Part shown: positions 20,611 through 50,720 of the stretch, one piece after another | Layout: every line of letters begins with the position of its first letter | Position numbering within the stretch: position 1 is the stretch's first letter | From: Bdellovibrio sp. BCCA | Lineage (GTDB): Bacteria > Bdellovibrionota > Bdellovibrionia > Bdellovibrionales > Bdellovibrionaceae | Direction: 5' to 3' | Assembly: GCF_037996825.1 (NCBI RefSeq) | Contig: NZ_JBBNAC010000001.1 | Location: forward strand, 868,001 to 932,000 | Length of the DNA stretch: 64,000 nucleotides | Program-made: the position numbers and the translations under genes | The notes under the pieces: generated by a model | Told to the model about the DNA's origin: nothing | The model's input: only the letters and a program-made list of their open reading frames with translations | The model's database searches: none

Positions 20611-20706
20611 AAGGTACCAGCTTCCCATCGTACCGAAAAGGAACATGTACCTTTTTTCGACAGAGGGAAGCAGGTACCTATGGCGAATGGCTGGTACCTA
20701 TGGCGA
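20611..20706. repeat. GGTACC-rich repeat cluster between HAD gene and topA
   Basis: In about 95 bases there are three GGTACC hexamers and two partial GTACC copies. AGGTACCAGCTTCCC at 20612-20626 and GGGAAGCAGGTACCT at 20665-20679 form an inverted repeat with 14 of 15 matches. GGTACCTATGGCGA occurs twice as a direct repeat, at 20673-20686 and 20693-20706. This looks like a regulator-binding region or a remnant of a dispersed repeat. Confidence 0.7.
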
Positions 20707-47198: not shown

Positions 47199-48254
47199 AT
47201 GACTTCTTATCGCGCAAAGTATTTTGATGGCACAAAGCCGGAGTCTCACCTTGTTGAAGTGAGTATCAAGAACGCCGTTCTTGAAATCATCAAAGAGGGA
47301 GAGATTCTGGATCACTGGCCGTTGAAATTAATTTACCGCGATAGCACGCATCTTTCGATAGTGATGTTGGCTTGTCAGGGAGAAGACGATGCGAGATTAG
47401 AAATTCTAGACAAGAATTTCTTAAAAGAGCTTCAAGGAAAAACATCCGTTCCAAAAAAAGGTCCGCTTAACGTTGGCACAAAAGAAGTTCTATTCTGGAT
47501 CGCAGGCATTGTCGCAGCTGTTTCGCTTTTATTCATGAGCGTAAAGCCAGTCACAAAATTTTTAGCAAAAAAAGTAAGTCACGAAACCGAAAGAAAGCTA
47601 CTGTCGTCGGCGATCAGTTTCGCTAAGCCCGATTACTGCACTCTAAACCTTGAGGAAAGTTTTGCTTTAGAAAAACTTCTTTCCAGAATTTATCCACAAT
47701 CAGCGGAAGATAAAAATCTCGGCATACAAATTCACATAGTGAAGAATCCGATAGAAAATGCTTTCGCTCTGCCAGGCGCTGAAATCTGGATTTACAATGG
47801 CTTGTTGCAAAAAGCACAATCTCCAGAAGAAATCGCCGGCGTTCTAGCACATGAAATAGAACACGTAAAACAACGCCACGTCTTAGAGACCATCGTAAGA
47901 GGAACACTCTTAACATCATTCTTAAGCCTCGCTGCAGGCGACGCCTCAGGAGCCCTGTTGGTAGACCCACAAACGGCAGCAAACTTATTATCGCTCAACT
48001 ATGACAGAGACATGGAAGCAAGCGCCGACGAAGGCGCAAGAACACGTTTAAAAGCCGCCAACGTTTCCACCCAAGGAATCATCAACTTCTTCGAAAGAAA
48101 TCAAAAGAAGGGGATAGAGATTCCAAAATTCCTATCAACACATCCCCTCAACGAAGACCGAATTCAAAAGTTCAAAGAGGACATCAAATCCGAAAAATCA
48201 GAACCACTTTTAACAAAACAAGAATGGGCTGCACTGCAATCGTCTTGTAAATAG
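47199..48254 (+). CDS. M48 family membrane metalloprotease
   Basis: A 351-residue protease. The first 100 residues form a small domain (YFDGTKPESHLVEVSIKNAV) common to M48 proteins; a transmembrane helix follows (VLFWIAGIVAAVSLLFM), then the catalytic domain with LAHEIEHVKQRH (HExxH) and the Glu in MEASADEGA. A Cys pair may help fold. It likely faces the periplasm and cleaves membrane or periplasmic proteins. It is co-transcribed with the DUF898 gene upstream and ends before the palindromic element. Confidence 0.9.
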   Translation: MTSYRAKYFDGTKPESHLVEVSIKNAVLEIIKEGEILDHWPLKLIYRDSTHLSIVMLACQGEDDARLEILDKNFLKELQGKTSVPKKGPLNVGTKEVLFWIAGIVAAVSLLFMSVKPVTKFLAKKVSHETERKLLSSAISFAKPDYCTLNLEESFALEKLLSRIYPQSAEDKNLGIQIHIVKNPIENAFALPGAEIWIYNGLLQKAQSPEEIAGVLAHEIEHVKQRHVLETIVRGTLLTSFLSLAAGDASGALLVDPQTAANLLSLNYDRDMEASADEGARTRLKAANVSTQGIINFFERNQKKGIEIPKFLSTHPLNEDRIQKFKEDIKSEKSEPLLTKQEWAALQSSCK

Positions 48255-48333
48255 CCTTCAATACTTTTGCGCACTATAGCCAGAAAAAAGAAGCAGGCAC
48301 CTTTTACAAAGACGAAGAAAGATGGGGATTTTA

Positions 48334-48528
48334 TTTGCCCAAAACCTCTGTCGAGCTGTGGGTTGGCTTTAGTAAGGTTAGTACGTAGGAAGGCCTTCGT
48401 CGGCGCCACGATGGCGCGTACCACTGCAAAGCAGTGGCGACGATTGAGCCCGGATGGCGTGCCTTCCGTAGAACTAGCCTTACTAAAGCCAACCCACAGC
48501 GCGCACCGAGAGTTTCGATTTGGGCAAA
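48334..48528. repeat. 195-base imperfect palindrome with branched interior
   Basis: The outer ends are TTTGCCCAAA (48334-48343) and TTTGGGCAAA (48519-48528). A perfect 22-base inverted match joins 48356-48377 to 48478-48499. Closer in, GGAAGGC (48388-48394) pairs with GCCTTCC (48461-48467). Inside that, GTCG (48399-48402) and CGAC (48438-48441) enclose two hairpins: GCGCCA/TGGCGC at 48403-48417 and CCACTGC/GCAGTGG at 48421-48437. The result is a three-way-junction shape. There is no transposase gene. It may be a MITE-like mobile repeat or a structured RNA. Small ORFs inside are by-products. Confidence 0.75.
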
Positions 48529-48560
48529 AAAAAGCCCCGGTGTTTCCACCGGGGCTTTGA
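48526..48560 (-). terminator. fusA terminator
   Basis: AAAGCCCCGGTG/CACCGGGGCTTT is a twelve-base stem with a four-base loop; on the minus strand a seven-base T-run follows. It directly abuts the right end of the 195-base palindrome. Two smaller hairpins, AGTTCT/AGAACT (48561-48577) and CTTCGGC/GCCGAAG (48585-48601), lie between it and the fusA stop. Confidence 0.88.
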
Positions 48561-48611
48561 AGTTCTAACTAAGAACTAGCATTACTTCGGCGAAGCCGAA
48601 GTGTAGACTAG

Positions 48612-50720
48612 CTACTTCTGCTCAGCTGCGCGCTTTGCTTGGTATTTCTTCGCAAGTTCTTCTTGGATGTTACGAGGTACAGGAGCGTACTTCGCGAATT
48701 CCATAGAGAACTCACCTTTACCTTTAGTACCAGAACGAAGATCAGTTGAGTAACCGAACATTTCAGTCAATGGTACTTCCGCTTCGATAACGCAGTTACC
48801 TTCGAAAGCAGTAGTTCCTACGATAGTACCACGGCGTTGGTTGATTTGACCAACCGCTGAACCTTGGTATTCGTCTGGAACAGTTGTCTCAAGCTTCATG
48901 ATAGGCTCAAGAACTGTTGGTTTCGCAGCAGCGTACACTTCACGAAGAGCCGCCATACCAGCGATTTTAAACGCCATGTATGAAGAGTCGACGTCATGGT
49001 AAGCACCGTCTTCAAGAACAACTTCAACGCCAACAATTGGGAAACCAATGAGTGGACCTTTAACAGTTTGTTCTTTGAAACCTTCTTCAACAGCTGGGAT
49101 GAATTCTTTTGGAATACGACCACCCACAACTTTGTTGTCGAATTTAAATACAGAACCGTCTTCTTGCGGAGGCAATGGAACGATTTTACCAACAATCTTC
49201 GCGTACTGACCCGAACCACCCGTTTGTTTTTTATGAGTGTAATCGAATGCAGCTTCTTGAGAGATCGTCTCACGGTAAGCAACCTGAGGTTGACCTACGA
49301 TCACTTCACAGTTGAACTCACGCTTCATGCGCTCAACGTAGATTTCCAAGTGCAACTCACCCATACCAGAGATGATAGTCTCATTTGATTCCTCGTCACG
49401 GTGTACGCGGAATGTAGGGTCTTCCTTACGGAACTTTTGCAACGCTTTAGAGAAGTTATTCGCAGCAGTTTTGTCCTTAGGAGCAACTGCCAAAGAGATA
49501 ACCGCGTCTGGAACGTGCATAGATTGCATAGATGCGTGGATGTTCTCGTCACAGAAAGTATCACCAGATGCACAGTCGATACCGAACAACGCAACGATGT
49601 CACCAGCGTAAGCTGTATCGATGTCTTCCATCTTATCAGAGTGCATACGAACCAAACGAGGAATCTTAACAGATTTCTTGTTCACTTGGTTCACGATGAA
49701 ATCACCTTTAGCCATCTTACCTTGGTAGATACGCATGTAAGTCAACTGACCAAATGGAGTCTCTTGAAGTTTGAACGCCAAAGAAACCAACGGTTTGTTG
49801 TTGTCTGGGAAGAGGTCAAACTTCTCTTCGTTCTTGTCAAGATCAAGAGCTTGCTCTTTTTTCTCAGCAGGAGACGGAAGGTAGTAAGTAACCGCGTCCA
49901 TCAAACGTTGAACACCTTTATTTTTGAAAGCAGAACCGCAAAGAACCGGAACAAGTTTCAAGCCGATAGTTCCTTTACGGATAGCAGCGCGAATCTCTTC
50001 AGTTGTCGGCTCTTCTTCCATCAAGAATTTCTCTTCGATAGCAGAGTCGATATCAGCCAATTTACCGATCATGATCTGACGGTATTTTTTCGCTGTTTCA
50101 ACTAGATCCGGTGGGATCTCGCCAACAACAACGTTTTCTCCGCTTTCACCTTCATTGATGTAAGACTTCATATCAGTCAAATCAACGTGACCTCTGTGTT
50201 GATCTTCCAAACCGATTGGGATTTGGATCATCACAGCGTTCAAGCGCAATTTTTCGATCAAAGCGTCAGTAACACGGTATGGGTTCGCACCTTGGCGATC
50301 CAACTTATTAACGAAAGCCAAACGAGGAACGTTGTAACGTTTCATTTGACGGTCAACAGTGATGGATTGAGATTGAACGCCGGCAACACCACAAAGAAGA
50401 AGAACGGCACCGTCAAGAACGCGAAGAGAACGTTCAACTTCAACTGTGAAGTCCACGTGCCCCGGAGTGTCGATCAAATTGATTGTGTAGTCTTTCCAGT
50501 GAACTTGCGTCGCCGCAGACTGGATAGTGATACCTTTTTCTCTCTCTAGATCCATGGAGTCCATTGTTGCACCGACGCCGTCTTTACCACGAACTTCGTG
50601 GATAGCGTGGATACGGCCTCCATAGAACAAAATACGCTCAGAAGTCGTCGTTTTTCCCGAGTCGATGTGAGCCGAGATACCGATATTTCTGACCATATCA
50701 ATATTCCATTTTTTGGACAT
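48612..50720 (-). CDS. fusA: Elongation factor G, mitochondrial-type (spdEFG1-like)
   Basis: A 702-residue translation GTPase that drives ribosome translocation. G1 is AHIDSGKTT (residues 17-25), with Ser where ordinary EF-G has Ala, then RGITI-equivalent KGITI, DTPGH and NKLD. The long matches [19 protein letters not shown] and [16 protein letters not shown] are like mitochondrial EF-G1, the class called spdEFG1 in spirochaetes, planctomycetes and delta-proteobacteria. Domains II-V follow in normal order. The gene is alone, not in an rpsL-rpsG-fusA-tuf operon. AAGAAGGG gives the ribosome site. Confidence 0.93.

Follow-up and report, generated by a model that had tools for sequence, protein, structure and literature searches.

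A dispersed family of non-coding DNA palindromes in Bdellovibrio with locus-specific arms around a shared three-way-junction core

The window, i.e., the whole stretch of 64,000 nucleotides of Bdellovibrio sp. BCCA that was analysed, contains a palindrome of 195 bases at positions 48334-48528, which lies between a gene for an M48-like protease (47199-48254, + strand) and fusA (48612-50720, - strand), both named from the original prediction and their encoded sequences. On the fusA strand, the palindrome is directly preceded by the intrinsic terminator of fusA (48526-48555, - strand; hairpin 48534-48555, T run 48526-48533), which finishes at the palindrome's edge. The original prediction had the unit spanning almost all of the M48-fusA gap, which proved to be an overstatement, as it takes up 195 of the 357 bases between the two stop codons. 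Direct reading confirmed its outer ends of ten bases each, TTTGCCCAAA (48334-48343) and TTTGGGCAAA (48519-48528), and the predicted richness in G+C was also borne out (55.9% in the unit and 63.3% in its core, vs. 42.6% in the M48 gene and 45.2% in fusA). The perfect inverted match that had been put at 22 bases is indeed present, but the perfect run is 23 bases long. The mirroring runs beyond these outer ends: a segment past the far end of the element, 48324-48340 (GGGGATTTTATTTGCCC, - strand), is a mirror copy, at 15 of 17 positions, of 48522-48538, which comprises the T-tail and the descending arm of the fusA terminator. When folded as RNA, 48334-48528 reaches -117.4 kcal/mol, compared with -63.8 +/- 4.4 kcal/mol for shuffled sequences (n = 200; z -12.2), none of which equals it, and the unit holds the sole perfect inverted repeat of at least 23 bp with a spacer of up to 220 in the window. 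The z value of the fold and the uniqueness among the window's inverted repeats rule out a chance palindrome, and the structure is far beyond chance.

Read on the fusA strand (-), the element is composed of the 5′ (fusA-side) arm of a long stem (48473-48500), a conserved core (48383-48472) and the 3′ arm (48355-48382), in which both arms are locus-specific and complementary to each other at 27 of 28 positions. The core is matched by our covariance model R1 with 103.8 bits, and a search of the own genome also finds it. Its stem GGAAGGC (48388-48394) with GCCTTCC (48461-48467), which had been predicted correctly, spans 48388-48467 and is fully paired here, less so in other copies, and a small hairpin, GCC-N5-GGC (48448-48458), is seen in the fold and in the alignment of six cores. 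The inner stem, P2 (48397-48402 with 48438-48443), encloses two perfect hairpins, as predicted, and thereby closes a three-way junction (48397-48443) that is indicated by the sequence, the fold and covariation. The hairpin P4 (GCGCCA/TGGCGC, 48403-48417) is the more conserved of the two by sequence reading and alignment, whereas P3 (CCACTGC/GCAGTGG, 48421-48437) is hypervariable yet paired family-wide, as judged from sequence reading and covariation.

The core is dispersed in the own genome and in related ones. Searching the own genome (4.01 Mb, 2 contigs) at the DNA level returned five further distinct sites, and the alignment of the six cores gave a model of 90 columns and 27 pairs, 10 of which show two-sided changes; searching the own genome with this model recovered 6 copies with E values of ~2e-13 or better. 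Model matches were found in 24 of 59 genomes, i.e., 22 of 24 in the genus (own included), 2 of 13 others in the family (one weak) and 0 of 22 in other families of the order. The 22 genus genomes with matches carry 2-30 copies each, and the model search of the 24 genus genomes found zero copies in G003 and G004. An exact 21-base pattern taken from the core matched three named records, all of which are Bdellovibrio MAGs. We extracted 122 copies, excluding the window's own match (the same as L010), and dropped one contig-edge copy, leaving 121 for the analysis of arm pairing, end motifs and outer flanks; because orthologues were counted separately unless stated, the copy counts are not independent. 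The repeat family was not found named in the literature searched, and a paper beyond that search may name it. We conclude that this is a real genus-wide repeat family, a non-coding DNA palindrome of Bdellovibrio. The contrary case considered in the original prediction was a single copy with no conserved pairing, i.e., a one-off local inverted duplication without relatives. The mirrored fusA tail does show local duplication, but the same core at 6 own-genome sites and in most of the genus, with stems that covary, leaves this reading with practically no probability, and it was rejected in favor of a family of dispersed cores.

Each copy, once oriented, consists of a left arm, a core and a right arm, and the part common to all is the three-way-junction core of ~90 nt. 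Within a copy the arms pair with a median local score of 29, vs. 7 for arms taken from different copies, and at least 22 of 30 arm pairs are Watson-Crick in 116 of the 121 copies; good arms are absent in the other 5. In 82 pairs (non-independent) from different loci with a core identity of 90% or more, the arm identity is 0.60, against a background of 0.56 +/- 0.07. For pairs from the same locus it is 0.81 where the core identity is 0.90-0.95 (n = 13) and 0.97 where the cores reach 0.95 or more (n = 11). Three copies in G013 are an exception, being alike in their arms (0.82) as well as in their cores. The cores themselves cluster by genome: 42 of 92 copies have their nearest core within their own genome, where 7.8 would be expected, a count that omits G019, G006 and G002 as close relatives of other genomes. 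The arms thus belong to the locus, and the core is common to the copies. Since the arms are unrelated despite near-identical cores, and since the cores cluster by genome, cores and arms have different histories: either the cores move and the arms are made or rewritten on site, or resident palindromes swap cores with one another.

Short end motifs, GCGRGGATTTG before the core and CAAATYTTGCT after it, lie mostly 32-42 nt from the core and are less conserved than the core. At least 8 of 11 motif positions are matched on the left in 72 and on the right in 55 of the 121 copies (21 and 17 in shuffled flanks), and at least 9 of 11 in 39 and 29 (3 and 0 in shuffled flanks), with the motifs having been derived from the same data. 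The window's copy has them only in degenerate form. We also note one copy in G019 (L188, orthologous to L016), which has lost the P4 hairpin and whose arms still pair, with a compensatory change.

In 28 of the 121 copies, compared with 1.2 expected, the mirroring of the outer flanks exceeds the 99th percentile of the cross control. Several genomes show an inverted copy of half of the fusA terminator past the element, and in the own-genome copy listed as both L011 and L004, the terminator tail of the upstream gene forms the left arm and an inverted copy of that tail forms the right arm. Because M48 orthologues occur in only 3 of 24 genomes, the flanks of fusA, available from 23 of 24 genomes, were used for the empty-site search, with L077 left out of the site comparison. 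The core is located behind fusA in 9 of these 23 loci; G009 has a weak remnant of it, and G007 has both flanks with neither an element nor a mirrored tail, which may reflect an insertion or a deletion. Five further sites searched for a clean empty site yielded no polarized clean insertion; L016 and L170 proved to have orthologues in G019. With regard to target-site duplications, a 235-nt block in G001, absent from G019, has TATTTT repeats at its borders, within a T tract (insertion or deletion), and at a second site 377 nt were lost or gained between T tracts. At L016:1968-1985, the sequence CCGCCACGGTGGCGGTAG lies in a stretch that has many short partial matches elsewhere in G019, perhaps another dispersed palindromic repeat.

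With respect to genes, 90 of 118 copies lie downstream of a same-strand gene according to a crude ORF caller, often 35-70 nt past the stop codon. Among the 114 copies with both neighbors called, 51 are in convergent gaps, which hold no orientation information, 8 in divergent gaps and 55 in tandem gaps, the last being sense in 36 cases and antisense in 19; these gap types are rough, since 40 of the 122 copies were flagged by this caller as spanned by an ORF of at least 80 aa. Of the 51 copies in convergent gaps, 40 have a core that is closer to the stop codon of the upstream gene. In 39 of the 90 copies behind a same-strand gene, a terminator lies between gene and core, so that the transcript of the upstream gene should mostly end before the core. 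The best reading of this placement behind genes and terminators is that insertion there is either tolerated or preferred. One of the 11 copies in HD100 (1,339,154-1,339,243, +) falls within the coordinates published for the transcript APsRNA6 (1,338,787-1,339,441, +; PMC3627812), a coordinate match that is backed by a c-di-GMP riboswitch in G006, the genome that we identify with HD100, located inside the published HD100 merRNA coordinates. APsRNA6 (L181; G006:C1:1338787-1339441) contains an ORF of 92 codons for a membrane-like peptide that ends just before the element, and APsRNA6 may therefore be a small mRNA.

The core stems covary strongly, with pairing conserved across the family: 95.1% of the cells are paired, and 376 cells are double-changed vs. 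99 in shuffles. Wobble states are rare (G.T in 3 and A.C in 5 of 1888 cells of P2, P3 and P4, with one loop-closing pair omitted), whereas in the control, RNase P RNA taken from 23 loci within the genus, G.T accounts for 171 and A.C for 7 of 2306 cells. The two alignments were built differently, i.e., the cores were fitted to the model and RNase P RNA was aligned by MAFFT and RNAalifold, but differing methods alone should not remove G.T and A.C alike. In the arms of 27 orthologous copy pairs, 793 pairs are the same, 67 are double-changed, 12 are G.T, 13 are A.C, 24 are other and 17 are gapped, and 34 of the 67 double changes are transversion-type swaps for which there is no G-U route. Paired changes without intermediates, including multi-base blocks, are observed in the family. 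Across 19 G001/G019 pairs, the arms diverge by 13.7% and 15.2%, roughly double the 6.9% of the core, and the outer flanks by 4.8% and 10.6%. One core position holds a conserved U.G pair (108 of 111), and the mismatches at arm positions 8-27 are strand-asymmetric (C.T 50 vs. A.G 3; A.C 22 vs. G.T 12), an asymmetry that was first seen in an ungapped count and then in a gapped recount and that, judged by eye, is largely the motif of one subfamily. In several copies in G005, A.C and C.T arm mismatches recur close to the core at a spacing of three pairs, which looks like a motif of a subfamily.

Covariation of this kind invites the reading, raised in the original prediction, of a structured RNA, here an element in mRNA 3′ regions that acts in stability, processing or termination and whose stems are kept by RNA selection. 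The covarying stems, the location of most copies after a same-strand gene and the HD100 copy inside APsRNA6 (PMC3627812) all agree with it, as do the conserved U.G pair and the end motifs, which would pair GGG with TTT and thereby fit an RNA on that strand. However, G.T is not commoner than A.C in either the core or the orthologous arms, unlike in RNase P RNA, half of the paired changes are of the transversion type, 39 copies have a terminator between gene and core, and no Rfam family reached its gathering score in the window stretch 47900-48900 or at the 7 loci searched. The covarying stems and the one copy within a transcript stand, but because the G-U signature seen in RNA of the same genus is absent from this covariation, a structured RNA is not the best reading, and we regard it as improbable.

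The other reading of the original prediction, a MITE-like repeat that lost its transposase, survives only in part: the core and short end motifs are common to the copies, but the long arms are not, and the analysis found no parent transposon. Its broader form, a REPIN- or MITE-type hairpin moved in trans by a transposase, with arms kept by selection for a hairpin recognized by its shape, is consistent with the dispersal, the clustering of the cores by genome, the end motifs lying mostly 32-42 nt from the core and the finding that 21 of the 24 genus genomes carry Y1 transposase genes. REPINs, too, are reported to combine conserved ends and compensatory changes with a spacer whose length and pairing are constrained (PMC3116915). 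Against it, none of the 24 Y1 loci tested (of 79 Y1 matches) has a core within ~1.5 kb, and the Y1 genes bear a different inverted end motif, AGGTRCCTGS, at 11 of the 24 loci (on both sides in 10, mostly ~780-830 bases apart); moreover, G008, G013 and G017, which carry 6-11 copies, gave no Y1 match, and the long arms are not common to the copies. RAYT/Y1 was rejected as the mobilizer on the first two of these grounds, and the reading as a whole appears unlikely to us. Among 10 pairs of inverted copies (L044-L053), no transposase-like ORF was seen by eye in the 3 pairs with ORF lists. Solitary copies of AGGTRCCTGS occur on the - strand of the window at 48290-48303, in the same M48-fusA gap, and near 20670, and L160 (G018), near a Y1 gene, has a 7-base tandem repeat, ATGAGTG, with a 14-mer occurring 13 times. 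A different kind of mobile DNA would carry only the folded core and build its inverted arms from the target: upon insertion behind a gene or terminator, an inverted copy of the flank would be made on the far side, giving every copy long inverted repeats of local origin. This fits the arms of L011, the mirrored fusA terminator and the near-identical cores with unrelated arms; we hold this to be a rather doubtful possibility, and the exchange of cores between old palindromes is a possible alternative to it. The related idea that the arms are plain target duplications is weakened by the conserved end motifs and partly revived by the arm comparison and L011.

On balance, we lean toward a dispersed DNA element whose locus-owned arms are kept complementary by fold-back template switching rather than by RNA selection. 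The core, a three-way junction when folded, caps a long hairpin with arms of the local site. It would let one DNA strand fold back during replication, and the growing strand could then switch template to the opposite arm, so that one arm would be rewritten as a copy of its partner. A mutation in either arm would thereby be erased or doubled, and the arms would therefore drift in step. Long tracts may occasionally copy flanking DNA, e.g., the fusA terminator tail, to the far side, and the cores may spread, or swap between resident palindromes, independently of the arms. Template-switch mutation is an established process elsewhere (PMC8794818). Here it is inferred from sequence comparison; the clearest candidate for such an event is L017/L039, where the left arm is the same and the right arm is perfect only in G001, which could also be recombination. 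The U.G pair, the GGG/TTT pairing of the ends, the asymmetric mismatches, the 5 of 121 copies with poor arms and the G013 trio count against template switching, and a possible alternative is that a protein recognizes the DNA hairpin or cruciform, in which case selection for that structure would likewise purge G.T and A.C alike. No host function is needed to explain the observations, the striking part of which is the locus-specific, step-locked arms around a shared core.

Covariation is usually read as proof of a functional RNA, whereas this family covaries strongly without the G-U signature and is therefore a natural case in which the pattern could arise from DNA copying and not from RNA selection. 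A simple test that separates the two is to compare the G.T to A.C ratio with that of an RNA from the same genome, and the many replicate palindromes could serve to measure fold-back template switching in living bacteria.

Among known systems, integron attC sites are likewise DNA hairpins, which have little conserved sequence and are recognized by their fold; as attC sites are generally described, the Bdellovibrio element differs in that its conserved part is central rather than terminal. MITEs and other small mobile repeats (ERIC/RU, NEMIS) are also short, non-coding, dispersed and palindromic. However, the terminal inverted repeats of a MITE are common to its copies, whereas the long inverted arms here are not, and the element has no parent transposon that we could find. 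The nearest known kind is the REPIN, a short, dispersed, intergenic palindrome that forms a hairpin and in which the sequence of the spacer is reported to be less important than its pairing and length, compensatory changes being seen as well (PMC3116915). Unlike in REPINs, the most conserved part of the Bdellovibrio element is the internal three-way-junction core, flanked by arms that are locus-specific and near-perfect, and the element occurs in 2-30 copies, with no core by a Y1 gene at 24 loci. Template-switch (quasipalindrome) mutation, as described in PMC8794818, resembles what is seen here in its multi-base paired changes and its reverse-complement copies made in one event; the difference is that the known process acts at ordinary loci, whereas in Bdellovibrio it appears to be provoked by a dispersed element at every place where that element is located.
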